NCBI RefSeq assembly: GCF_050003625.1
Contig: NC_134400.1
Coordinates: 195,251,918-195,315,917, forward strand
Direction of reading: 5' to 3'
DNA: 64,000 nt
DNA from: Haematobia irritans
Lineage: Eukaryota; Arthropoda; Insecta; Diptera; Muscidae
Shown here: in pieces, positions 9,575 to 59,251 of the stretch
Layout of the letters: every line of letters begins with the position of its first letter
Position numbering within the stretch: the first letter of the stretch is position 1
Notes under the pieces: model-generated
What the model was told of the DNA's origin: nothing
Seen by the model: the letters and a program-made list of their open reading frames with translations, nothing else
Databases searched by the model: none
Program-made: the position numbers and the translations under genes

Positions 9575-9645
9575 AATTCGGTAGGGGTGGTCTAGGATAT
9601 GCTATAGTCGGCCCCACCCGACTTTCTACTCTACTTGCATATTTT
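9575..9645 (-). repeat. Head of dispersed repeat family 2 (minus strand)
   Basis: The minus strand reads GCAAGTAGAGTAGAAAGTCG then GGTGGGGCCGACTATAGCAT. It corresponds to the head at 18562-18610 (AAAGTCGGGCGGGGCCGACT). The GTCGG/CCGAC arms form a short hairpin. The element would run leftward, so the 8.5-9.5 kb flank is probably its body. Confidence 0.55.
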
Positions 9646-10252: not shown

Positions 10253-11125
10253 ACCGCGAGAGCAGGAATTGAACCTCCTACCCTTTGTATGCAAGGCGGG
10301 CATGCTAACAATTGCTCCACGACGGCCAACTAAAGGTATGTTTCTGTTAAATGAAGTTTATTTACATCGGCTCGTGGGCGCCGAAAACTATGCGCTATTA
10401 ATATAGGTTAGGTTAGGCTAGGTGGCAGCCCGATGTATCAGGCTCACTTAGACTATTCAGTCCATTGTGATACTACATTGGTGAACTTCTCTCTTGTCAC
10501 TGAGTGCTGCCCGATTCCATGTTAAGCTCAATGACAAGGGACCTCCTTTTTATATCCGAGTCCGAACGGCGTTCCACATTGCAGTGAAACCACTTAGAGA
10601 AGCTTTGAAACCCTAAGAAATGTCACCAGCATTACTGAGGTGGGATAATCCACCGCTGAAAAACTTTTTGGTGTTCGGTCGAAGCAGGAATCGAACCCAC
10701 GACCTTGTGTATGCAAGGCGGGCATGCTAACCATTGCACCACGGTGGCTCCCACTATTAATATAACAGCTTGACTGTTTGCGTTGCTTGTGAGTTGATAG
10801 CTATACAAACTGTATGGTCCGCGGTTCGATTGTCCGTACAGGCGAAAGGCAAAATTTAAAAAAATATATATAAAATCGAATGATATCTTCTATATAGTTT
10901 GTGTTACAGAAAAAGGTGCTAAGAACTAAAAAACCTCGAGGAAGTGAGAAAGATGTGAGGAAAGAAGCAATTAGTTGGAAAACAATTTTGTTTTTCTGTT
11001 AGTCTTTATGAAATTGTAAAAGAATTAACGTGTTTATCACAAAAAGTGAAAAGTAAATGGGAAACGATATTTGTTTGTCAAAAATTTCGTTTGGAAGGAA
11101 ATAATTATTTTTTGTGTGTAGAATC
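10253..11125 (+). mobile_element. Composite tRNA-like repeat, copy 1
   Basis: This is homologous to 56917-57460. Shared blocks are the CGGCCAACTAAAGGTATGTT type start, TCGGCTCGTGGGCGCCG, the tRNA-like middle (GGTCCGCGGTTCGATTGTCC, ~10816), AGAAAAAGGTGCTAAGAACT and the terminal AAATTTCGTTTGGAAGGAA block. The left end (10255-10330) is itself a tRNA-like head on the minus strand, with B box GGTTCAATTCC and A-box region GTGGAGCAATTG. The copy is interrupted by a SINE at 10406-10753. Pol III transcription is inferred from the boxes only. Confidence 0.65.
10406..10753 (-). mobile_element. tRNA-derived SINE, full length, minus strand
   Basis: Read on minus, it starts GGGAGCCACCGTGGTGCAAT and has an A box TGGTGCAATGG and a B box GGTTCGATTCC. 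It continues through AAAAAGGAGGTCCCTTGTCA, ATGGAATCGGGCAGCACTCA and GGGCTGCCACC, and ends in CCTAA repeats. It is flanked by an 11-bp target duplication CTATTAATATA (10395-10405 and 10754-10764), which dates it after the composite repeat it interrupts. There is no open reading frame; mobilisation would need a partner LINE. Confidence 0.93.
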
Positions 11126-15640: not shown

Positions 15641-16166
15641 AAATATGGGAAACATTTAAACCTGAACCAATTTTGAGGCAACTTCGCAAAAGCGTATTTA
15701 TTGCACCATGGATCCACCGTGGTGTAATGCCCGCCTTGCATACACAAGGTCGTGGGTTCGATTTCTGCTTCGACCGAACACCAAAGCGGTGGATTATCCC
15801 ACCTCAGTAATGCTGATGACATTGCTGAGGGTTTCAAAGCTTTTCTAAGTGGTTTCACTGCAATGTGGAACGCCGCTCGGACTCGTCTATAAAAAGGAGG
15901 TCCCTTGACATTGAGCTTAACATGGAATCGGGTAGCACTCAGTGATAAGAGAGGAGTTCACCAATGTGGTATCACAATGGACTGAATAGTCTAAGTGAGC
16001 CTGATACATCGGGCTGCCACCTAACCTTTAGTAAAAAGTAAAACTCTGTGCCAAATTTGAGGACGATCGCTAAATCGACTCAAAATTTAATTCTAAGACG
16101 ATCGGTATACTAAACGATGGGTCTCAGACTTTTCCTTCTTGGCGTTATATACAAATGCACTAACTT
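15641..16166 (+). mobile_element. Dispersed repeat fragment (family 2-like) hosting a SINE
   Basis: The left part (ATATGGGAAACATTTAAACC, ~15645) matches 19742-19805. The right part (TCTGTGCCAAATTTGAGG, GACGATCGGTATACTAAACG, CTTCTTGGCGTTATATACAA) continues the family. After the inserted element at 16167-17103, it resumes with a TTATTATACCCTTTACCACA terminus (17104). Confidence 0.6.
15706..16033 (+). mobile_element. tRNA-derived SINE, plus strand
   Basis: Same family as 10406-10753. The A-box region has lost about 9 bp (GTGGTGTAATG joins directly to GCCCGCC), which should damage the internal promoter. The B box GGTTCGATTTC and the 3' region through GGGCTGCCACCTAACC are retained. No convincing target duplication was seen. 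A minus-strand frame across it (15544-15858) is not a gene. Confidence 0.88.
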
Positions 16167-18745: not shown

Positions 18746-19678
18746 AAGGGTGATTTGTTAAGAGCTTGATAACTTTTTTTTTTAAAAAAACGCATAAAAT
18801 TTGCAAAATCTCATCGGTTCTTTATTTGAAACGTTAGATTGGTCCATGACATTTACTTTTTGAAGATAATTTCATTTAAATGTTGACCGCGGCTGCGTCT
18901 TAGGTGGTCCATTCGGAAAGTCCAATTTTGGGCAACTTTTTCGAGCATTTCGGCCGGAATAGCCCGAATTTCTTCGGAAATGTTGTCTTCCAAAGCTGGA
19001 ATAGTTGCTGGCTTATTTCTGTAGACTTTAGACTTGACGTAGCCCCACAAAAAATAGTCTAAAGGCGTCAAATCGCATGATCTTGGTGGCCAACTTACCG
19101 GTCCATTTCTTGAGATGAATTGTTCTCCGAAGTTTTCCCTCAAAATGGCCATAGAATCGCGAGCTGTGTGGCATGTAGCGCCATCTTGTTGAAACCACAT
19201 GTCAACCAAGTTCAGTTCTTCCATTTTTGGCAACAAAAAGTTTGTTAGCATCGAACGATAGCGATCGCCATTCACCATAACGTTGCGTCCAACAGCATCT
19301 TTGAAAAAATACGGTCCAATGATTCCACCAGCGTACAAACCACACCAAACAGTGCATTTTTCGGGATGCATGGGCAGTTCTTGAACGGCTTCTGGTTGCT
19401 CTTCACTCCAAATGCGGCAATTTTGCTTATTTACGTAGCCATTCAACCAGAAATGAGCCTCATCGCTGAACAAAATTTGTCGATAAACACATTTCGAACC
19501 GAACACTGATTTTGGTAATAAAATTCAATGATTTGCAAGCGTTGCTCGTTAGTAAGTCTATTCATGATGAAATGTCAAAGCATACTGAGCATCTTTCTCT
19601 TTGACACCATGTCTGAAATCCCACGTGATCTGTCAAATACTAATGCATGAAAATCCTAACCTCAAAAGAATCACCCTT
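18746..19678 (-). mobile_element. Tc1/mariner-superfamily DD41D transposon, internally deleted
   Basis: The ends are AAGGGTGATTTGTTAAGAG (18746) and CTCAAAAGAATCACCCTT (to 19678). The terminal inverted repeat is AAGGGTGATT with weaker similarity inward. The element is flanked by TA at 18744-18745 and 19679-19680, the TA duplication typical of this superfamily. At 933 bp it is shorter than the roughly 1.2-1.3 kb expected of full-length relatives. The missing part lies in the N-terminal half of the transposase, so this copy cannot mobilise itself. It sits inside dispersed repeat family 2. Confidence 0.9.
18853..19565 (-). pseudogene. DD41D transposase pseudogene (rosa-like)
   Basis: The transposase would bind the terminal repeats and perform DDD-type cut-and-paste transposition. 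The long frame (19506-18853, 217 aa) carries the catalytic core. D15 lies in FSDEAHFWLNG, D108 in WFQQDGATCHTA, and D150 in SCDLTPLDYFLWGY, with 41 residues between the second and third Asp. That DD41D spacing is the hallmark described for the rosa lineage. The authentic start is upstream at 19565-19563, reading MNRLTNEQRLQIIEFYYQNQ in another frame (offset 2). The DNA-binding helix-turn-helix region between it and the core is missing, joined out of frame near 19495-19505. It is therefore a dead copy, although the catalytic core is uninterrupted. Confidence 0.9.
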
Positions 19679-23815: not shown

Positions 23816-26625
23816 TAAAATCTTATTTTGTCAACATTTTATTTCGATAGAAAATTTTGTCACAATTTTATTTCTATAGACAATTTTGTCTAAATTTTAT
23901 TTCTATAGAAAATATTGTCAAAATTTTATTTCTATAGAAAATTTTATTCCGATTTTGTCAAAATTTTTCATATTCAGAAAATTTTGCCAAATTTTATTTC
24001 GATAGAAAATTTTGTCAAAATTTTATTTCTATAGAAAATTTTGTCAAAATCTTATTTCTATAGAAAATTGTGTCAAAATTTTATTTCTATAGAAAATTTT
24101 GTAAAAAAATTTATTCCGATTTTGTCAAAATCGTATATCTATAGAAAATTTTTTCAAAAATGTATATCTATAGAATTTTTTCCAAATTTTATTTCTATTG
24201 TCTATAGACAATATTTTTTACGATATAGAATATTTTGTCAAAATTTTATTTCTATAGACAATTTTATCAACGTTTTTCATATATAGAAAATTTTGTCAAA
24301 ATTTTATTTCTATAGAAAATTTTGTCAAAATTTTATTTCTATAAATAATTTTGTCAACATATTATCAAAATTTTATTTCTATAGAAAATTTTGTCAAAAT
24401 TTTATTTCTATAGAAAATTTTGTCAAAACTTTATCTCATTTCATATATAGAAAATTTTGTCAAAATTTTATTTCTATAGGAAAATTTTGTCAACATTTTA
24501 TTTCTATAGAAAATTTTGTCAAAATTTTATTTCTATAGAAAATTTTGTCAAAATTTTATTTCTATAGAAAATTTTGTCAAAACTTTATCTCATTTCATAT
24601 ATAGAAAATTTTGTAAAAATATATATCTATAGATTTTTTTTTTCAAAATTTTATTTCTATAGGAAATTTTGTCAAAATTGTATTTCTATAGGAAATGTTG
24701 TCAAAATTTTATTTCTATAGGAAATTTTATCAAAATGTTATTTCTATAGAAAATTTTGTCAAAATTTTATTTCTATAGAAAATTTTGTCAAAATTTTATT
24801 TCTATAGAAAATTTTTTTAAAATTTTATCTCTATAGAACATTTTGTCAAAATTTTATTTCTATAGAAAATTTTGTCAAAATTTTATTTCTATAGAAAGTT
24901 TTGTAAAAAATTTTATTCAGATTTTGTAAAAATTGTATATCTATAGATTTTTTTTTCAAAATTTTATTTCTATACGAAATTTTGTCAAAATTTTATTTCT
25001 ATAGGAATTTTTGTCAAAATTTTATTTCTATAGGAAATTTTATCAAAATTTTATTTCTATACGAAATTTTGTCAAAATGTTATTTCTATAGACAATTTTA
25101 TCAAAATTTTTCATATATAGAAAATTTTATCAAAATTTTATTTCTATAGACAATATTATCAAAATTTTTCATATATAGAAAATTTTATCAAAATTTTATT
25201 TCTATAGACAATTTTATCAAAATTTAATTCCTATAGACAATTTTATCAAAATTTTTCATATATAGAAAATTTTATCAAAATTTTATTTCTATAGAAAATT
25301 TTGTCAAAATTTTATTTCTATAGAAAATTTTGTAAATATTTTATTCCGATTTTGTAAAAATTGTATATCTATAGATTTTTTTCAAAATTTTATTTCTATA
25401 CGAAATTTTTTCAAAATGTTATTTCTATAGACAATTTTATCAAAATTTTTCATATATAGACAATTTTGTCAAAATTTTATTTCTATAGAAAATTTTATCA
25501 AATTTTTTCATATATAGAAAATTTTGTCAAAGTCTTATTTCTATAGAAAATTTTGTCAAAATTTTATTTCTATAGAACATTTTGTCAAAGTTTTATTTCT
25601 ATAGAAAATTTTGTCAAAATTGTATTTCTATAGAAAATTTTGTAAAAAATTTTATTCCGATTTTGTAAAAATTGTATATCTATATATTTTTTTTCAAAAT
25701 TTTATTTCTATACGAAATTTTGTCAAAATTTTATTTCTATAGGAATTTTTGTCAAAATTTTATTTCTATAGGAAATTTTATCAAAATTTTATTTCTATAC
25801 GAAATTTTGTCAAAATGTCATTTCTATAGACAATTTTATCAAAATTTTTCATATATAGAAAATTTTGTCAAAATTTTATTTCTATAGAAAGTTTTATCAA
25901 ATTTTTTCATATATAGAAAAGTTTGTCAAAATTTTATTTCTATACGAAATTTTGTCAAAATTTTATTTCTATACGAAATTTTGTCAAAATTTTATTTCTA
26001 TAGACAATTTTATCAAAATTTTTCTATATAGACAATTTTATCAAAATTTTATTTCTATAGAAAATTTTGTCAAAATTTAATTCTATAGACAATTTTATCA
26101 AAATATTTCATATATAGAAAATTTTATCAAAATTTTATTTCTATAGAAAATTTTGTCAAAATTTTATTCCTATAGAACATTTTGTCAAAATTTTATTTCT
26201 GTAGAAATTTTTGTCAAAATTTTATTTCTAAAGAAAATTTTGTAAAAAATTTTATTCTGATTTTGTAAATATTGTATATCTATAGAATTTTTTTTTCAAA
26301 ATTTTATTTCTGTACGAAATTTTGTCACAATTTCATTTCTATAGAAAATTTTGTCAAAATTTTATTTCTATAGGAAATTTTATCAAAATTATATTTCTAA
26401 AGAAAATTTTGTCAAAATTTTATTTCTATAGAACACTTTGTTAAAATTTTATTTCTATAGAAAATTTTGTCAAAATTTTATTTCTATACGAAATTTTGTC
26501 AAAATTTTATTTCTATAGAAAATTTTGTCAAAATTTTATTTCTATAGAAAATTTTGTTAAAATTGTATTTCTATAGAAAATTTTGTCAAAATTTTATTTC
26601 TATAGACAAATTTAGAAAATTTATT
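23816..26625 (-). repeat. 29-bp repeat array, reversed, ~2.8 kb
   Basis: Monomers read TTTTATTTCTATAGAAAATT/TTGTCAAAA on +. A local variant TTTTTCATATATAGAAAATT is interspersed about every 3-5 units (for example 25105, 25250, 25450, 25845, 26105). TTATTCCGATTTTGT also recurs, which gives a higher-order pattern. Plus-strand frames are array translations. Confidence 0.92.
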
Positions 26626-27085
26626 GTATTATCACAGACGTAGTGATTCTCTCGATCTCACTAACTCAGTCTACATCACTGAGCAATGATATCTGTATAT
26701 ATGTAAATAGACTAACTAGCATGTAAATTGTAAATATTATTATTACTATTAGTTATTAAGTTGTAAATATATAATAATAAGTAGATCTAAGTACTTGAAT
26801 TAATTTTGATTTGTTTTTATTTTTTGTTTTGTTCTTTTACCTTCACTATAAATTTGCTGTTTTTTAATGTCCTAAATTGTTGCGGCGACAACCTTAATGT
26901 TAACATACCCGTATGTAAATTAATCAAGTAAATATTGTTAACCACAAATTTAATATATTTTGGAAGACCCTGAAATCTGTATGGCTGGATAACAAACCAA
27001 ACATTTTATTACTTATAGGTTATTTGTAAAGTATATAAGAAAGAAATGGAAATAAAAATAGCCTTTGTGCAAAAATCAAAATCAA
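26626..27085. other. Non-array island inside the array
   Basis: About 460 bp of unrelated AT-rich sequence (from CACAGACGTAGTGATTCTC to GCAAAAATCAAAATC) splits two arrays of the same orientation. It has stop-rich, 3'-UTR-like composition and no frame. It could be a retroelement tail inserted into the array, but I did not recognise it. Confidence 0.4.
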
Positions 27086-27770
27086 AAATTTTCATATATA
27101 GGAAATTTTGTCAAAATTTTATTTCTATAGAAAATTGTGTCAAAATTTTATTTCTATAGAAAATTTTGTCAAAATTTTATTTCTATAGAAAACTTTGTCA
27201 AATTTTATTTCTACAGAAAATTTTGTAAAAAATTGTATTCCGATGTTCTAAAATTTGTATATCTATAGAAAATTTTGTTAAAATTGTATATCTATAAAAT
27301 TTTTTTTCCAAAATTTTATTTCTATACAAAATTTTGTCAAAATTTTATTTCTATACGAAATTTTTTCAAAATTATATTTCTATACGAAATTTTATCAAAA
27401 TTTTTCATATATAGAATATTTTATCAAAATTTTTCATATATAGAATATTTTATCAAAATTTTATTTCTATAGACAATTTTATCAAAATTTTTCATATATA
27501 GAAAATTTTGACAAAATTTTTCATATATAGAAAATTTTGTCAAAATTGTATTTCTATAGAAAATTTTGTCAAAATTTTATTCCGATTTTGTAAAATTTGT
27601 ATATCTATAGAAAATGTTGTCAAAATTGTATATCTATAGAATTTTTTTTCAAAATTTTATTTCTATACGAAATTTTGTCAAAATTGTATTTCTATAGAAA
27701 ATTTTGTCAAAATTTTATTTCTATAGAAAATTTTGTCAAAATTTTATTTCTATACGAAATTTTATTATTT
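27086..27770 (-). repeat. 29-bp repeat array, reversed
   Basis: This has the same orientation and the same CATATATAG variant as 23816-26625. It was presumably contiguous with that array before the island at 26626-27085. Confidence 0.9.
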
Positions 27771-27777
27771 ATAGAGT

Positions 27778-28027
27778 TTGTAAGGCTTGAGGTCATTGAG
27801 CTTAACATGGAATCGGGCAGCACTCAGTGATAAGAGAGAAGTTCACCACTGTGGTATCACAATGGACTGAATAGTCTAAGTGAGCCTGATACATCGAGCT
27901 GCCACATAACCTAACCTAACCTAAGGCTTGAGGTCATGTTGTAATAAAACAAAATAAAATCTTATATCATAGTGTCTTATTTTTATTTTCTATCCAATAT
28001 TTCGAACAACGATGGTGTTCGAAATAT
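27778..28027 (-). mobile_element. Penelope-like 3' end fragment, minus orientation
   Basis: The order AAGGCTTGAGGTCA .. CCAATATTTCGAAC matches the 3' ends at 32686-32736 (AAGCTCGAGGTC .. CCAATATTTCGCG) and 47459-47510. An 11-bp perfect hairpin, ATATTTCGAAC / GTTCGAAATAT (27997-28007 and 28017-28027), marks its inner boundary. There the sequence switches to a plus-strand PLE 5' region containing a hammerhead ribozyme. It is interrupted by a truncated SINE. Confidence 0.6.
27796..27921 (+). mobile_element. 5'-truncated tRNA-SINE (126 bp)
   Basis: This is the 3' third of the SINE family only, from TTGAGCTTAACATGGAATCG to the CCTAACCTAACC tail. It is flanked by a 15-bp target duplication TAAGGCTTGAGGTCA (27781-27795 and 27922-27936). 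Truncation with a long duplication is the expected product of target-primed reverse transcription. It lacks the A and B boxes. Confidence 0.92.
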
Positions 28028-28200
28028 GCAAGTAGAGGATGCTGATGAGGAATGTGGTAATTCCGAAACAGCTGTACATCCAACCATCTTGCAGTCTATA
28101 GGGCTTTTCCCAAATAAATTTGACACGCATACTTTTCCTCTGTTGGTTAAGCTACACTTGTAGTTTAGTCAATGCATGGCTTTAAGCTGAGATCAAAAAC
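28028..28200 (+). mobile_element. Penelope-like 5' (pLTR) fragment
   Basis: The block from GCAAGTAGAGGATG through CATCTTGCAGTCTATAGGGC and GGTTAAGCTACACTTG to CTGAGATCAA is about 95% the same as the minus strand of 35893-36065. It begins with the hammerhead ribozyme. A 63-codon frame here is not a gene. Confidence 0.7.
28037..28081 (+). ncRNA. Type I hammerhead ribozyme, complete core
   Basis: All parts of a hammerhead are present in order. Helix I 5' strand is GGATG (28037-28041), then the core CTGATGA (28042-28048). Helix II is GGAAT/ATTCC (28049-28053 and 28060-28064, 5 bp, loop GTGGTA). The core GAAA follows (28065-28068). Helix III is CA/TG with loop GC (28069-28074), then TA completing the GUA cleavage triplet. 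Helix I 3' strand is CATCC (28077-28081). Predicted self-cleavage falls between 28076 and 28077. Hammerheads with such a tiny, self-complementary helix III (CAGCTG) are known from Penelope-like elements, where a dimeric form is thought to be more active. Activity is not demonstrated here. Confidence 0.9.
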
Positions 28201-28254
28201 AACAATAACGATTGAAGAGAAGCCAACAATAACAAACAAAAAAAAATTATTTCT

Positions 28255-30370
28255 TTAAAAAATTTTATTCCGATAGAAAATTTTGTCAAAATTCCGATAG
28301 AAAAATTTGTCAAAATTCCGCTAGAAAAATTTGTCAAAATGATATTTCTTAGAAAATTTTGTCAAAATTTTATTTCTTTAGAAAATTTTGTCAAAAATTT
28401 ATTTCTATAGAAAATGTTGTCAACATTTTATTTCTATAGAAAATTTTGTCAAAATTTTATTGCGATAGAAAATTTTGTCAAAATTTTATTTCTATAGAAC
28501 ATTTTGTCAAAATTTTATTTCTATAGAAAATTTTGTCAAAATTTTATTTCTATAGAAAATTTTGTCAAAATTTTATTTCGTTAGAAAATTTTTCCAAAAT
28601 TTTATTTCTATAGAAAATTTTGTCAAAATTTTATTTCTATAGAAAATTTTGTTAAAATTGTATTCGTATAGAAAATTTTGTAAAAATTTTATTCGTATAG
28701 AAAATTTTGTCAAAATTTTACTTCCATAGAAAATGTTGTCAAAATTTTATTTCTATAGAAAATGTTGTCAAAATTTTATTTCTATAGAAAATTTTGTCAA
28801 AATTTTATATCTATAGAAAATGTTGTCAAAATTTTATTTCTATAGAAAATTTTGTCAAAATTTTATTTCTATAGAAAATTTTGTCAAAATTGCATTTCTA
28901 TAGAAAATTTTGTCAAAATTTTATTTCTATAGAAAATTTTGTCACAATTTTATTTCTATAGAAAATTTTGTCAAAATTTTATTTCTATAGAAAATTTTTT
29001 CAAAATTTTATTTCTATAGAAAATTTTGTCAAAATTTTATTTCTATAGAAAATTTTGTCATAATTTTATTTCTATAGAAAATTTTGTCAAAATTGTATTC
29101 GTATAGAAAATTTTGTAAAAATTTTATTCGTATAGAAAATTTTGTCAAAATTTTACTTCTATAGAAAATGTCAAAATTTTATTTCTATACCAAATTTTGT
29201 CAAAATTTAATTTTTATAGAAAATTTTGTCAAAATTTTATTTCCATAGAAAATTTTGTCAAAATTTTATTTCTATAGAAAATTTTGTCAAAATTTTATTT
29301 CAATAGAAAATTTTTGTCCAAATTTTATTCCGATAAAAAAATTTGTCAAAATTTTGTTTCTTAGAAAATTTTGTCAAAATTTTATTTCTATAGAAATTTT
29401 TTTTAAAAATTTTATTTCTATAGAATTTTTTTTTAAAAATTTTATTTCTATAGAAAATTTTGCCAAAATTTTATTTCTATAGAAAATTTTACCAAAATTT
29501 TACTTCTATAGAAAATTTTGCCAAAATTTTATTTCTTTAGAAAATTTTATTCCGATCGAAAATTTTGTCTAAATTCCGATAAAAAAATTTGTCAAAATTT
29601 TGTTTCTTAGAAAATTTTGTCAAAACTTTATTTCTGTAGAAAATTTTGTCAAAATTTTATTCGTACAGAAAATTTTGTCAAAATTTTGTTTCTTAGACAA
29701 TTTTGTCAAAATTTTATTCGTACAGAAAATTTTGTCAAAATTTTATTTCTATAGAAAATTATGTCAAAATTTTATTTCTATAGAAAATTTTGTCAAAATT
29801 TTATTTCTATAGAAAATTTTGTCAAAATTTTATTTCTATAGAAAATTTTGCCAAAATTTTATTTCTATAGAAAATTTTATCAAAATTTTATTTCTATAGA
29901 AAATTTTGCCAAAATTTTATTTCTTTAGAAAATTTTATTCCGATCGAAAATTTTGTCAAAATTCCGATAAAAAAATTTGTCAAAATTTTGTTTCTTAGAA
30001 AATTTTGTCAAAATTTTATTCCTATAGAAAATGTTGTCAAAATTTTATTTCTATAGAAAATTTTGTCAAAATTTTATTTCTATAGAAAATGTTGTCAAAA
30101 TTTTATTTCTATAGAAAATTTTGTTAAAATTGTATTCGTATAGAAAATTTTGTAAAAATTTTATTCGTATAGAAAATTTTGTCAAAATTTTACTTCCATA
30201 GAAAATGTTGTGAAAATTTTATTTCTATAGAAAATGTTGTCAAAATTTTATTTCTATAGAAAATTTTGTCAAAATTTTATTTCTATACAAAATGTTGTCA
30301 AAATTTTATTTCTATAGAAAATTTTGTAAAAATTTTATTTCTATAGAAAATTTTGTCAAAATTTTATTAA
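28255..30370 (-). repeat. 29-bp repeat array, reversed, ~2.1 kb
   Basis: Monomers are in the same orientation as 23.8-27.8 kb. Local variants ATTCCGATAGAAAA and TATTCGTATAGAAAATT recur. A block with the order CGTATAG, CGTATAG, ACTTCCATAG is repeated at about 28660-28800, 29095-29170 (partly) and 30125-30240. Frames at 29255-29812 are array translations. Confidence 0.92.
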
Positions 30371-32483: not shown

Positions 32484-32670
32484 TAATAAAATTTTCTTTG
32501 TGGGAATGAAATAAAAATTTTGACAAATTTTTCTCTAGAAATAAAATTTTGACAAAATTTTCTATAGAAATAAAATTTTGATAAACTTTTTATGGAAACA
32601 AAATGTGGGCAAAATTTTCGATAGAAATAAAATTTTGAAAAAAATTTTTATAGAAATAAAATTTGTAAAT
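32484..32670 (+). repeat. Short 29-bp array next to the PLE 3' end
   Basis: About six monomers abut the PLE 3' terminus that starts near 32684 (GGTTCTTCAAGCTCGAGG). Confidence 0.8.
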
Positions 32671-32683
32671 TAATGGTTCTTCA

Positions 32684-33040
32684 AGCTCGAGGTCTTTTTA
32701 AAATATTTTATTTATTATTCCCAATATTTCGCGATTACGATATTGAATCGCTTCCTCAGGGGTCTACAATAGATTTATAGAAATTACATTTCATAAATAT
32801 CACAGTATTAAACATTTAATAATTTAAGTAAGTGTAAATCTTAATTACTTTTAGTTAATAATCTCAAATGGTATTATAGGATAATATAAATATACAAAAA
32901 TCGGACAGACATAGCTTAATCTCATTTTTCAAGTATCAGGCGAACAGAAAAATTAAAACAGCAACACAACCAATAATGACTTACATGTATAGTATCCACA
33001 ACACAAAATACTTAAAGCTACTGTAGATTCACTACCCTCG
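32684..33040 (-). mobile_element. Penelope-like element 3' untranslated end
   Basis: Downstream of the RT/endonuclease frame on the minus strand, this carries CCTGAGGAAGCGATT..AATCGCGAAATATTGG (32721-32760) and ends ..GACCTCGAGCTTGAAGAACC. A second, 5'-truncated copy with the same order is at 47459-47620. Confidence 0.75.
32727..32759 (-). other. Conserved 3'-end hairpin with hammerhead-like flanks
   Basis: On minus: CTGAGGA (32759-32753), A, GCGATT (32751-32746), loop CAATATCGT, AATCGC (32736-32731), GAAA (32730-32727). The paralogue at 47499-47528 has CTGAAGA, stem GCAATT/AATTGC and GAAA, with one compensated base-pair change. The NUH cleavage triplet and helix I are not evident, so this is a conserved structure and not a called ribozyme. 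Confidence 0.6.
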
Positions 33041-35414
33041 TCAGCTGTCTGTATTGCACTGAGTTGTTTTTACTATTGCACGATGATCACTACCATGTAT
33101 TTGTTGTTTCCTTTTCCGAAGCAAATGCCTGTAACAGTGAGCGATGTTTTCTGTATCAACTTTGAAGTTCATTCGTTTGCTTGCAGGTACATTGTTTATG
33201 TGAAGTGTTTCTAGTGTAAACCTTTTGCTGTAATTATTCTCTCTTTCTAATATTCTTACGTCGTCAAAGTTTGGGGTATGATTGTTTCTCGCACAGTGGT
33301 CTGCTAGTGCCGTTTTTTGTGGTATTCGAGTTGGTGCGTAATTTAATATCCGATTTATGTCCTGAAATTCTTGTTTTTAATTTGTTTTTGGATGTTCCTA
33401 CATAAACTTTTTCACATTTTTCTTTATTATTTCCACCGCACGGTATTTCATAAATCGTATTATGTTTTTCCATAGTGGGGATCTTGGTTTTCATGTTGGA
33501 AAATAATTTTTTGAGAGTATTGTTTGACTTGTGTGCTAAAGTGTATTGTCCTTTATCAAAGATTTCAGAGTTTGTAATTCGTTCTGATAATTTGTTGACA
33601 TATACTAGTGACTTGTATATTGTTTCCTCGTTTTTATTTTCGTTTTGTTTTTTCCCCTCCGGATTAAATTGTGATATTAAGTCATTAATTAAATATTTTG
33701 GAAAATTATTGTTGTGTAGAATATCTCTAATAATGGATTTGTTTTTTGAATGATATTCTTTGTCACTTATGTTTAACACCCTGCTTATAAGATTTTTTGC
33801 TGTGTTAATCACTATCCTTTTTGGGTGTTGTGAAAAATAATTCATTATTCTCCCCGATGCTGTTGGTTTTTGGTACCAATCTAAACCAAGTTTATAATTT
33901 TCCTTCCTGATAACCAGCGTGTCTAAGTATGGAATTCTGCCGTTTTTCTCTATTTCTACCGTGAATTTTATGCTATTATGGAAGCCATTTAATGTTGTCA
34001 AGATCTCATGTATTGCACCTTCCCGAACCACAGCAAATATATCGTCCACATATTTCGTCAAGATTTTTGGTTTTGTTGTCAAGTTTTCCATGCAGTTGTC
34101 CAGTAAATGTTCCATAACTATATCAGCTACAATAGGTGAAGCAGATGATCCCATCGGCAGTCCTCTCTTTTGTTTATATGTTTTGTCTTCATACGTAAAG
34201 TATCTATTCTCCACTATGCAGAATTTTAAAATTTTCATAAATATATTCTTTGTAAGTCTAGTATGGCCCTCCAATTCTTGCCATCTACTTTCGATGATTT
34301 TTAAAGCTAAGTCAACCGGTACACTTGGGAATAGGGACACAACGTCAAAAGATACTAATTTTTCATCCTCCTTGATAGTCAGGTTCTTGATCTTATTTTT
34401 AAATTGCAGGGAGTCCTTTATATTGTACTTCGAGTCCTGTGTTAAAATTTTTAAAAGGTTTCCAATGTACTTGCAGAGATTGCTCGAAGTTGAATCTATA
34501 GATGAGCAAATTGGCCGTAATGGATAACCATCTTATGCTACGTCCATTTTTAGTCGCTTTTTCTCTGCAGGCGAAATCATGTTGTTTCTGTCCAGTTCCT
34601 CCACTAATTTGTTATTTTTTCTTTGCAACGATGTCGTTGGATCCTTGTTGATTCTTTGATACATCATCATGTCACTTATAATATTCATCATTCTCTGTTG
34701 ATATTCACTTTTTTTAAAATTAATATATTTTTATTTTTCTTTAGAAATTGTCGAGTTTACTCCACTGTTCTTGTAACGAACTTCTCCCTACTGTTGTATT
34801 TCATTTTATTTAAATGAGTTTCTAAAGTTGTTGCGAACATTGTTCTCGCAGTTTCCTGTTCTTCCTTTTCTTTTTTTGTAGATTGTATTATAAGTTCCCC
34901 ATCACTTATATATTTAAAAAGTGGAAATTCGGCTTTTGATGTTTGGAGACCATGTTTTTGTCCTAGCGACAGTAACCAATAATTTTTTCTTGTGTGTTGC
35001 GGTTGACTTTTCTTTAATTTCCCTTGTAATTTTATTTTCTCTTGTCCAAAGGTAATTCTTTTCTTCTTCATTAAGTTTACTGTCTAAGTATGATTTTATT
35101 CCGTCCTTTTCTCGTTCAATATCTCGTTTTATATTATGTTGATGTTTTATAACAACATTTAGAATTTTTCTTTGAAAATTCTCAATATGCTTGTCTAGCG
35201 TCTTCTGTACTTCATATTCCTTTCGTCCATTTCCTAATATATTGTAAACATTTTTCATTGCTTGTTTTATGAATCCTGGTATAATTCCCTCGTTGCGACA
35301 TTTTATTAGGAAAGTCATTGTCGATTTTGTCCTTATAACTTTTTCATTTAAATTTTTATGTCTATTTATACTGTGTTTTATGCTGTTGTTTTTCTTTAGT
35401 CTATTGTAGATCAT
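33041..35414 (-). pseudogene. Penelope-like reverse transcriptase / GIY-YIG endonuclease pseudogene
   Basis: The product would nick target DNA and copy the element RNA. The long frame (open from 34532 to 33264) has RT motif A SFDVVSLFPSVP, motif B GLPMGSSASP (34163-34134) and catalytic KYVDD (~34056-34041). GRIPYLDT and a GIY-YIG domain follow (TIYEIPCGG .. KVYVGTSKNKLKTRISGHK). Upstream frames encode the N-terminal region (FLIKCRNEGIIPGFIKQAMK, 35414 to ~34985). Lesions are a frameshift near the A6 tract at 34983-34988, a stop TAA near 34757 with loss of frame, and a stop at 34535-34533 with loss of residues before DGYPLRPI. A further frameshift lies at the A6 tract 33313-33318. After that one, KTALADHCARNNHTPNFDD continues to TGA at 33043-33041. 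This lineage pairs RT with GIY-YIG and is related to telomerase. Confidence 0.93.
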
Positions 35415-35474
35415 TTTTGAATTATTTGGTTGTTTCGGCGGGCTCTCCGTTTAATTATTAGTTTTTGTTTTTGG

Positions 35475-35890
35475 ACAAAGTTTCTATAGAAACAAAATTT
35501 GGACAAAATTTCCTATAGAAATAAAATTACTGACAAAATTTTCTCTAGAAATAAATTTTTAACAAAATTTTCTATAGAAATAAAATTTTGACACAATTAT
35601 CAACAAAAAAAAAAATTGTGACAAAATTTTGTATAAAACTAAAATTTGTATAAAATTTTTTTATAGAAATAAAATTTTGACAAAATTTTCCATAGAAATA
35701 AAATTTGGACAAAATTTTCCATAGAAATAAAATTTTGAAAAAAAAACATTCTATAGAAATAAAATTTGGACAAAATTTCCTATAAAAATAAAATGTTGAC
35801 ACAATTATCTATAGAAAAAAAATTGTGACAAATTTTGTATAAATATAAAATTTGTATAAAATTTTTTTATAGAAATAAAATTTTGTTGTT
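35475..35890 (+). repeat. 29-bp array between PLE 5' region and ORF
   Basis: About 14 monomers separate the plus-strand mirror of the pLTR (35893-36065) from the first codon of the PLE frame (35414). Either the array inserted into this PLE or two PLE fragments flank it. The variants GTATAAATATAAAATT and CCATAGAAATAAAATT are shared with 36.3-38.0 kb. Confidence 0.85.
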
Positions 35891-35892
35891 TT

Positions 35893-36065
35893 TTTTCTTG
35901 ATCTCAGATTAAAGCCATGCATTGACTAAACCACAAGTGTAGCTTAACCAACAGAGGAAAAGTATGCTTGTCAAATTTATTTGGGCAAAGCCCTATAGAC
36001 TGCAAGATGGTTGGATGTACAGCTGTTTCGGAATTACCACATTCCTCATCAACATCCTCTACTTG
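35893..36065 (-). mobile_element. Penelope-like 5' (pLTR) fragment, minus strand
   Basis: This is the reverse-strand homologue of 28028-28200, running from TGCAAGTAGAGGATG to CTGAGATCAA. It is upstream of, and in the same orientation as, the RT pseudogene, so it is plausibly the 5' end of that element. The adjoining 36066-36245 (non-array, reading AAACCCTTTTTCGGGAGGTT on minus) may be further pLTR. Confidence 0.7.
36013..36057 (-). ncRNA. Decayed hammerhead ribozyme (C3-to-U core change)
   Basis: The sequence is identical to the 28037-28081 ribozyme except that the core reads TTGATGA (36052-36046) and not CTGATGA. C3 normally pairs with G8 in the active site, so this copy should be inactive or strongly impaired. 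Helix I GGATG/CATCC, helix II GGAAT/ATTCC, GAAA and CAGCTGTA are all retained. Confidence 0.85.
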
Positions 36066-36249
36066 CAGCAAAACTATCAACCAATTATCAGAATAAATTC
36101 GGGTAATTCACTCAACCCAAAGTGAACTACACTTGAACCTCCCGAAAAAGGGTTTGATAGTCGGCTACTGCCTAAACAAATTTGCCAGCATATCTCTTTT
36201 CCTTTGCCAAACTCAAATCATCGATTTGAATGTATTTGGCTGGGTTTGT

Positions 36250-37975
36250 TTTTGACAAAATTTTCTATAGAAATAAAATTTTGACAAAATTTTCTATAGA
36301 AATAAAATCTTCATAAAATTTTCTATACAAATAAAATTTGGACAAAATTTCCTACAGAAATAAATTTTTTGACAACATTTTCTATAGAAATAAAATTTTC
36401 ATAAAATTTTCATAAAATTTTCTATAGAAATAAAATTTTCATAAAATTTTCTATAAAAATAAAGTTTTGACAAAATTTTCTATAGAAATAAAATTTTTGA
36501 CACAATTTTCTCTAGAAATAAATTTTAACAAATTTTTCTATCGAAATAAAATTTTGACAAAATTTTCCAAGGAAATAAAATTTGGACAAAATTTTCCATA
36601 GAAATAAAATTTTGACAAATTTTTTCATAGAAATAAAATGTTGAGAACATTTTCTATAGAAAAAAAAATTTCATAAAAGTTGCTATACAAATAAAATTTG
36701 GACAAAATTTTCTATAGAAATACAATTAGGACAAAATTTTGTATAAATATAAAATTTGGACAAAATTTTCCATAGAAAAAAAATTGTACAAAATTTTCTA
36801 TAGAAATAAAGTTTTCATAAAATTTTCTATAGAAATAAAGTTGTCATAACATTTTCTATACAAATAAAATTTGGACAAAATTTCCTATAGAAATAAAATT
36901 TTGACAAAATTATCTGTAGCAAATAAAATTGTGACAAAATTTTGTATAAAAATAAAATTTTCTATACAAATAAAATTTGGACAAAATTTCCTATAGAAAT
37001 AAATTTATTGACAAAATTTTCTATAGAAATAAAATTTTCATAAAATTTTATATAGAAATAAAATGTTGAGAAAATTTTCTATAGAAATAAAATTTTGACA
37101 AAATTATCTATAGAAATAAAATTGTGACAAAATTTTGTATAAATATAAAATTTATATAAAATTTTTTTATAGAAATAAAATTTTGACAAAATTTTCTATA
37201 CAAATAAATTTTTAACAAAATTTTCTATAGAAATAAAATTTTGACACAATTTTCTATAGAAATACATTTTTGACAAAATTTTCTATAGAAATAAAATTTG
37301 GACAAAATTTTCCATAGAAAAAAAAATTGACAAAATTTTCTATAGAAATAAAATTTAGACAAAATTTTTTTTACAAAATTTTCTCTAGAAATAAATTTTT
37401 AACAAAATTTTCTACAGAAATACAATTTGGACAAAATTTTCCATAGAAATAAAATTTAGACAAATTTTTTCATAGAAATAAAATTTTGAAAAATTGTTTC
37501 ATAGAAATAAAATTTTGACAAAATTTTGTATAAATATAAAATTTCGATAAAATTTTCTATAGAAATAAAATTTTAACCACATTTTCTATAGAAATAAATT
37601 TTTGACAAAATTTTCTATAGAAATAAAATTTTGCAAAATTTTGTATAAATATAAAATTTTGATAAAATTTCCTACAGAAATAAAATTTTAACCACATTTT
37701 CTATAGAAATAAAATTTTGGCAAAATTTTCATATAAATAAAAATTTAACTAAATTTTCTATAGAAATAAAATTTTGACAAAATTTTTTATAGAAATAAAA
37801 TTTTGACAAAATTTTTTATAGTAATAAAATTTTGTAATAATTTTGTATAAATATAAAATTTTGATAAAATTGTCTATAGAAATAAAATTTTGACAAAATT
37901 TTTTTATAAATATAAAATTTTGATAAAATTTTCTACAGAAATAAAATTTTGACAAAATTTTCTATAGAAGTAAAC
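36250..37975 (+). repeat. 29-bp repeat array, ~1.7 kb
   Basis: Monomers include common TTCATAAAATT, TGGACAAAATT and GTATAAATATAAAATT variants. A minus-strand frame (37758-37955) is array translation. The array ends at GTAAACTTTTGTGTCACGAC. Confidence 0.9.
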
Positions 37976-48758: not shown

Positions 48759-49102
48759 GGGAGCCACCGTGGTGCAATGGTTAGCATGCCCGCCTTGCAT
48801 ACACAAGGTCGTGGGTTCGATTCCTGCTTCGACCGAACACCAAAAAGTTTTTCAACGGTGGATTATCCCACCTCAGTAATGCTGGTGACATTTCTGAGGG
48901 TTTCAAAGCTTCTCTAAGTGGTTTCACAGCAATGGGGAACGCCGTTCGGACTCGGCTATAAAAAGGAGGTCCCTTGTCATTGAGCTTAACATGGAATCGG
49001 GCAGCACTCAGTGATAAGAGAGAAGTTCACCAATGTGGTATCACAATGGACTGAATAGTCTAAGTGTGCCTGATACATCGGGCTGCCACCTAACCTTACC
49101 TT
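48759..49102 (+). mobile_element. tRNA-derived SINE, full length, plus strand
   Basis: It starts GGGAGCCACCGTGGTGCAAT with an A box TGGTGCAATGG (48770-48780) and a B box GGTTCGATTCC (48814-48824), both intact. It runs to GGGCTGCCACCTAACCTTACC. A GGGAGCCACC fragment just upstream (48741-48750) duplicates its first 10 bp. No clear target duplication was seen. This is the best-preserved promoter in the window for the family. Confidence 0.92.
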
Positions 49103-59087: not shown

Positions 59088-59251
59088 CTGCAATATGGAA
59101 CGCCGTTCGGACTCGGCTATAAAAAGGAGGTTCCTTGTCATTGAGCTTAACATGGAATCGGGCAGCACTCAGTGATAAGAGAGAAGTTCACCAATGTGGT
59201 AACACAATGGACTGAATAGTCTAAGTGAGCCTGATACATCGGGCTGCCATC
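59088..59251 (+). mobile_element. 5'-truncated tRNA-SINE (164 bp)
   Basis: It starts at CTGCAATATGGAACGCCG and ends GGGCTGCCATC. A 13-bp target duplication TAAGCATCTCTCA lies at 59075-59087 and 59252-59264. Promoter boxes are absent. Confidence 0.93.

Follow-up and report, generated by a model that had tools for sequence, protein, structure and literature searches.

What is the hammerhead-like motif at positions 28037–28081 of this stretch, and what carries it? We analyzed the whole 64,000-nucleotide stretch of DNA (the window) and consider it likely, judging from the sequence, that the motif forms the core of a type I hammerhead of the extended kind. Its carrier would be a small mobile repeat, apparently non-coding and non-autonomous, in the genome of a muscid fly that is most probably Haematobia irritans. 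The hammerhead is probably cleavage-competent. Its 45 nucleotides on the plus strand agree letter for letter with the segments listed in an earlier note on this DNA (GGATG-CTGATGA-GGAAT-GTGGTA-ATTCC-GAAA-CAGCTG-TA-CATCC), and the reading given there holds as far as it concerns a type I hammerhead whose core is intact and whose cleavage is predicted to follow A28076. The core is CTGANGA ... GAAA, with A15.1-U16.1 and H17, and three helices are possible (5, 5, and 2 bp, the last with a tetraloop), helix I being open and continuing outward. Every helix had been described as perfectly paired. This is the case for helices I and II, which are perfect at 5 bp each. Helix III had to be redrawn, because reading CAGCTG as three pairs leaves a 2-nt loop; it is better read as the conserved A15.1-U16.1 pair and one C-G pair closing a palindromic AGCU tetraloop.

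Two features that had not been used before are a distal helix I and a possible pairing between loops. GUGGU in loop 2 is complementary to ACCAU in loop 1, making four Watson-Crick pairs and one G-U pair possible. The stretch 28027–28093 looks like a type I hammerhead of the extended kind, in contrast to the minimal hammerheads that have been described from Penelope-like elements, and has the following parts.

28027..28093 (+), putative full extended type I hammerhead, 67 nt, larger than first noted
28037..28081 (+), core hammerhead as first noted, found by exact letters and descriptor scan
28027–28032/28088–28093 (+), distal helix I, 6 bp (TGCAAG/CTTGCA)
28033–28036/28082–28087 (+), helix I internal loop (TAGA/AACCAT)
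28037–28041/28077–28081 (+), proximal helix I, 5 bp (GGATG/CATCC)
28042–28048 (+), core CTGATGA
28049–28053/28060–28064 (+), helix II, 5 bp
28054–28059 (+), loop 2, hexaloop GTGGTA
28054..28058 (+), loop 2 strand GTGGT, able to pair with ACCAT of loop 1
28083..28087 (+), loop 1 strand ACCAT, partner of loop 2
28065–28068 (+), GAAA
28068–28075 (+), helix III with its AGCT loop
28076 (+), A at position H17
28076..28077 (+), predicted cleavage site A28076/C28077, from hammerhead numbering

Loop pairings occur in all three hammerhead types and were judged likely in ~40% of those examined, and a weak stem III is common among hammerheads, according to the cited part of PMC3088659. By its features rather than its sequence, the horn-fly ribozyme may be likened to the extended type I hammerheads of newt satellite DNA, Schistosoma Sm-alpha, and invertebrate retrozymes: all have an open helix I with an internal loop, the exact core, a weak helix III with a small loop, and a possible loop contact. 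It differs in that its contact would be a pairing of 4–5 bases, its Rfam score is below threshold, and its cleavage is predicted.

How often would such a motif arise by chance? A relaxed descriptor (up to one core mismatch, one extra base allowed, minimum lengths of 4 bp for helix II and 3–4 bp for helix I, and GC conditions) was run on both strands of all 64,000 bases and matched three places: 28037–28081, its second copy with one core change, and a minimal motif with one extra base in the 3' region of a Penelope-like element. The bare core pattern without helices is not rare, with one match in the window and a mean of 7.58 in shuffles. When helices were required (helix I at least 5, helix II at least 4, and helix III at least 2 bp), one strand of first-order Markov sequence at the composition of the window gave 1 match in 20 Mb and, in a separate set, 6 in 400 Mb, while the non-satellite composition gave 1 in 400 Mb. 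The expectation per window on both strands is ~0.002 (from the 6-in-400 rate) or 0.006 (from the 1-in-20 rate). When a distal helix (5 bp or more) and a loop pairing (4 bp or more) were required as well, no match remained on the one strand searched in either 400-Mb Markov set. The chance of a 6-bp distal helix is 0.029 in random trials, although this helix also belongs to the long stem structure of copy 2 (below) and is thus not fully independent evidence; that of the loop–loop pairing is 0.063 for four Watson-Crick pairs and 0.036 for five pairs including G-U, in random loops.

As a natural control we used the pattern CTGATGA-N5-25-GAAACAGCTGTA, which occurs at 13 viral and 61 prokaryotic loci (74 loci, 75 placements). 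Helices I and II both reached at least 5 bp in none of the 75 prokaryotic and viral placements, and one of the 75 had a helix I of at least 4 bp with a helix II of at least 3 bp. The pattern GGATGYTGATGAGGAATGTGG had no match in the viral contigs. One control match, on Oribacterium sp. contig NZ_KE384190.1, surrounds a hammerhead core with 4 bp of helix I and 6 bp of helix II, which may be a coincidence. A match like that at 28037–28081 somewhere in a large scan is unsurprising by itself, and the weight rests on the distal helix and the loop–loop pairing.

Comparison with Rfam covariance models, proposed in the earlier note as a check, came out against a hammerhead, the score being below threshold. 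At the gathering threshold, Rfam had no match in the whole window, and at E values up to 10 it placed no hammerhead on 27900–28240 and none on copy 2. A 96-base query was matched by RF03152 at 11.9 bits (E 8.5) as compared with a threshold of 56.3, which is a model-based and not a biochemical criterion and was applied with no known hammerhead as a positive control. This model, the RAGATH-1 hammerhead, was the sole Rfam hammerhead model listed, and it aligned with exactly 28037–28081 in the right register; however, the score means that the horn-fly motif is not a member by the Rfam rule. The minimum-energy fold of the ribozyme also differs from the hammerhead fold (−19.5 versus −14.2 kcal/mol), as calculated by a program that ignores the loop contact and magnesium. 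The ribozyme pieces taken alone fold better than most shuffles, which were as good in 5 of 200 and 4 of 200 cases.

The ribozyme lies in a repeat. A blastn search within the window found one further copy, at 36067–35885 (−), identical to 28027–28209 at 174 of 183 positions (95%). The two copies and the Penelope-like element of the window are as follows.

28027..28209 (+), copy 1 of the ribozyme repeat, 183 bp, reaching less far 5' than copy 2
28142..28173 (+), hairpin of 14 bp, some of them G-U, within the 3' half (z −4.09, 0 of 200 shuffles as good); the sole difference in copy 2 makes a pair G-U
35885..36249 (−), copy 2, longer (365 bp, with ~180 bp more at the 5' end), RNA predicted to be highly structured; inserted in satellite, with an AAAA stretch on either side
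36001..36067 (−), copy 2 hammerhead, differing at a single one of 67 nt (T in place of C3, at 36052)
~32665..35470 (−), Penelope-like element, a separate insertion with its frame in pieces and satellite on both sides
34532–33267 (−), reverse transcriptase (RT) piece of the Penelope-like element (PF00078)
32720..32762 (−), minimal hammerhead-like motif in the Penelope 3' region, with CTGAGGA, an extra A, a 6-bp helix II, GAAA, no real helix III, and a 3-bp helix I

The copies have nine differences, one of which falls in the ribozyme (66 of 67 positions kept). C3 pairs with G8 in the hammerhead core. U3 occurs naturally together with A8, as the cited part of PMC3088659 records, and the change C3G alone abolished a Penelope hammerhead (PMC11167929). 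Since copy 2 has U3 without an accompanying A8, and given the effect of C3G, its hammerhead would be expected to have weak or no activity. With two copies in the window and the sole ribozyme difference expected to be harmful, neither covariation nor purifying selection can be claimed. Copy 2 lies within 29-bp satellite between GTCAAAA and AAAATTTT, so that a 4-bp duplication of AAAA is possible.

The RNA of copy 2 has a strong predicted fold (−120.6 kcal/mol; shuffles −85.5, sd 5.3; z −6.66; as good in 0 of 100), and the energy is −117.3 kcal/mol when helices I and II are kept and the core is open, with the two pairs of helix III also left open. The opposite strand folds well too (−100.3 kcal/mol, z −3.1). 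In two sets of 150 simulations, one for each of two mutation loads (decay settings), none favored the ribozyme strand by as much, and 5 of 150 and 7 of 150 showed a gap of the same size and opposite sign, with the model structure taken from the ribozyme-strand fold. Over its full length, copy 1 has a fold typical of shuffles (z −0.04, as good in 97 of 200). Two of the differences, at 28108 and 28126, would disrupt pairing of the copy 2 stem in copy 1, whose partner strand is gone. The GC content is 0.393 for copy 1 and 0.386 for copy 2.

The earlier note had placed the motif in a Penelope-like fragment. It belongs instead to this different small repeat, and the recognized Penelope element is ~4.6 kb off, on the other strand, and bounded by satellite. 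Over 97% of the query, the RT of that element has 98% identity with a Haematobia irritans protein, which is the basis for naming the host; a protein search with it returned 312 proteins at E up to 0.001, and the organisms named among the best 120 of these 312 were flies and one moth. A GIY-YIG-like motif was read by eye from the alignment and was not named by Pfam. Among viral contigs, the RT piece had 15 pattern matches and no confirmed relative. The ribozyme repeat is not joined to the RT/GIY-YIG open frame, as a satellite array lies between them and copy 1 is far away on the other strand. Near the motif, the sole blastn match of the Penelope element (E up to 1e-3) is 41 bp of 80% identity in A-rich sequence at 28211–28251, just outside the repeat.

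The ribozyme is also not of the Penelope type to which it had been assigned. It has an extended helix I and a possible pairing of loop 1 with loop 2, whereas Penelope hammerheads are minimal, without helix III or tertiary loop contacts, in the cited parts of two reviews (PMC6155905, PMC7761336). The horn-fly ribozyme shares the catalytic core with these minimal hammerheads of Penelope-like elements and Terminons, and a Penelope element occurs in the window, but both a helix III and a tertiary contact are possible in the horn-fly ribozyme, which lies outside Penelope. The minimal hammerheads are better matched by 32720–32762 (−) than by 28027–28093. This motif reads CCC-CTGAGGA-A-GCGATT...AATCGC-GAAA-TA-TT-GGG and is close to the description in the same parts of those reviews, except that an additional A separates the core from helix II. 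Rfam gave no support to 32720–32762 (−), and the local fold there is unremarkable (z −1.16, equaled by 22 of 200 shuffles). The window thus has both hammerhead-like kinds, extended and minimal, in separate insertions.

Several other readings of the repeat were weighed. The motif may be a chance look-alike that never cleaves, within a structured fold-back repeat of SINE- or MITE-like kind. The sub-threshold Rfam score, the commonness of the bare core pattern, the T at core position 3 of copy 2, and the sharing of distal helix I with the long stem of copy 2 would all suit this reading, as would the many windows presumably screened, among which rare chance matches are expected somewhere. It is nevertheless improbable in our judgment, as the full descriptor was absent from one strand of 2 x 400 Mb, none of the 75 core-plus-helix-III matches elsewhere had both helices of at least 5 bp, and the loops are complementary besides. 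A piece of protein-coding sequence is hardly credible. A 67-codon open frame at 36107–35904 (−) does run through the copy 2 ribozyme; however, of the five codons that differ between the copies, four change the residue and one is a stop in copy 1, and a protein search with the 67-amino acid frame gave no candidate sharing three 5-residue words among proteins 0.55 to 1.75 times the query in length.

The remaining alternatives assign the ribozyme to known kinds of element. According to the cited part of PMC7229834, animal type I hammerheads are mostly found in tandem non-LTR retrozymes of 170–400 nt, with low GC, self-paired RNA, and mention of insect hosts. A true metazoan non-LTR retrozyme, circularizing and spreading as circRNA and represented here by degenerate monomeric copies, would be a special case of the explanation we prefer, and we regard it as unlikely. 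The likeness is considerable: the repeat is small (183–365 bp, within ~170–400 nt), has no known protein and a GC content of 0.39 (under 50%), and occurs in the same genome as Penelope elements, as in the cited parts of PMC7229834 and PMC7761336; its type I hammerhead has a possible loop contact and a weak helix III with a palindromic tetraloop; and the RNA of copy 2 is highly self-paired, although copy 1 alone is not unusually so. However, retrozymes are tandem, as dimers or more with a ribozyme per unit, and both horn-fly copies in the window are single units with one ribozyme and no unit repeat alongside, so that there is no circle cuttable at a single site. The ribozyme also lies in the middle of the element, which is longer and has an A-rich 3' end. 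Because the tandem arrangement is absent from the window, the repeat resembles a retrozyme but is not filed as one. Quite improbable, in our view, is that the ribozyme is the pseudo-LTR (pLTR) hammerhead of a Penelope-like element, with copy 1 a stray terminal-repeat fragment. Copy 2 and the first Penelope ORF piece share a strand, with copy 2 ~430 bp upstream; Penelope elements carry hammerheads, and the green anole ORF begins at hammerhead stem II (PMC11167929); and the 90 nt left of copy 1 weakly resemble the Penelope 3' end on the minus strand (CGAAATATTGG; 24 of 2000 shuffles score as high), where a Penelope scrap may adjoin the motif in opposite orientation. On the other hand, the Penelope element has its own, different, minimal hammerhead-like motif, and the ribozyme is of the extended and not the minimal type. 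Moreover, ~415 bp of 29-bp satellite lie between copy 2 and the element, and the Penelope 3' region, in which a pLTR repeat would be expected, has no blastn match to the ribozyme repeat (E up to 1e-3); on these two grounds, membership of the repeat in Penelope was rejected.

The preferred reading, a hammerhead in a small mobile repeat, would add a horn-fly case to a known kind, namely hammerheads in animal repeats. We found no report of this repeat in open-licence titles and abstract beginnings, which argues only weakly that none exists. Dipterans, the house fly included, have type III hammerheads (PMC7936874, cited part).

For cleavage, RNA processing, and mobilization of the horn-fly repeat, we infer the following course. 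In read-through transcripts of copy 1, loop 2 would dock on the helix I internal loop, and self-cleavage after A28076 would yield an upstream part ending in a 2',3'-cyclic phosphate and a product that starts CATCC and bears a 5'-OH. In full-length copies, the halves would stay joined by the rod-like stems that enclose the ribozyme, and cutting would thus nick or process the RNA of the element, yielding a defined 5' end or a substrate for religation. A dimer through helix III, proposed in the earlier note, is chemically reasonable. The eight nucleotides ACAGCUGU form a palindrome, with a duplex energy of −11.1 kcal/mol, and in the account cited from PMC7229834 dimerization improves the cleavage of amphibian hammerheads that combine a weak helix III with a palindromic tetraloop. 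Such a dimer does not apply within one transcript of this locus: the copies are single, 8 kb apart, on opposite strands, and changed in the core in one case, so one transcript would not carry two intact ribozymes.

The repeat may have been spread by the reverse transcriptase of another element, for which the Penelope-like element is a natural candidate. Penelope elements have been proposed as likely movers of small hammerhead repeats (PMC7229834 and PMC7761336, in the parts cited). The Penelope hammerhead of the green anole required protein for cleavage, its cleavage site was neither the start nor the end of any RNA read, and ribozyme mutants left insertion in vitro unaffected (PMC11167929), so a role of the ribozyme in mobilization is not to be taken for granted. 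More speculatively, and with little probability in our estimate, the repeat could be a new ribozyme-bearing retroposon with a rod-shaped RNA and one hammerhead in the middle of the rod, in which self-cutting nicks the rod rather than releasing circles and copying occurs in trans by a Penelope-type reverse transcriptase. The left join of copy 1, at which a stretch resembling the Penelope 3' end meets the 5'-shortened repeat head to head, would then be the scar of an insertion primed on both strands of a break, one on Penelope RNA and the other on ribozyme RNA. Such a scar is expected from an enzyme that cuts and extends both DNA strands, as the green anole Penelope protein did (PMC11167929).

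The locus offers a type I hammerhead that is intact, compact, and testable, from a fly that is a pest of livestock; nearby is a Penelope element that bears a minimal hammerhead-like motif of its own. Having both hammerhead kinds side by side, with the natural C3U copy as a built-in control, makes it a convenient place to test the proposal that Penelope is the mover. If the ribozyme does not cleave, it will be a useful warning about motif searches.

The insertions are surrounded by arrays of a 29-bp AT-rich satellite (consensus AAAATTTTATTTCTATAGAAAATTTTGTC) at 26000–27765, 28259–30368, 35470–35885, and 36250–37495. A perfect 12-bp inverted repeat at 27997–28027 lies directly left of copy 1, and its minus strand leads into CGAAATATTGG, like the Penelope 3' end at 32721–32731. 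A 16-nt exact match to the left-junction sequence of copy 1 occurs at 9629–9644 (−), in otherwise different surroundings. Elsewhere in the window is a 223-amino acid open frame at 18853–19524 (−), which resembles a mariner-type transposase; Pfam had no match to this frame. ARAGORN found no tRNA gene in the window, a result still compatible with a degenerate tRNA head of a SINE. A SINE-like 125-bp repeat is located at 27797–27921 and is flanked by a 16-bp direct repeat (TAAGGCTTGAGGTCAT) at 27781–27796 and 27922–27937. It has four more partial matches of 95–97% identity, at 10404–10535 (−), 15909–16027, 48976–49101, and 59137–59249.
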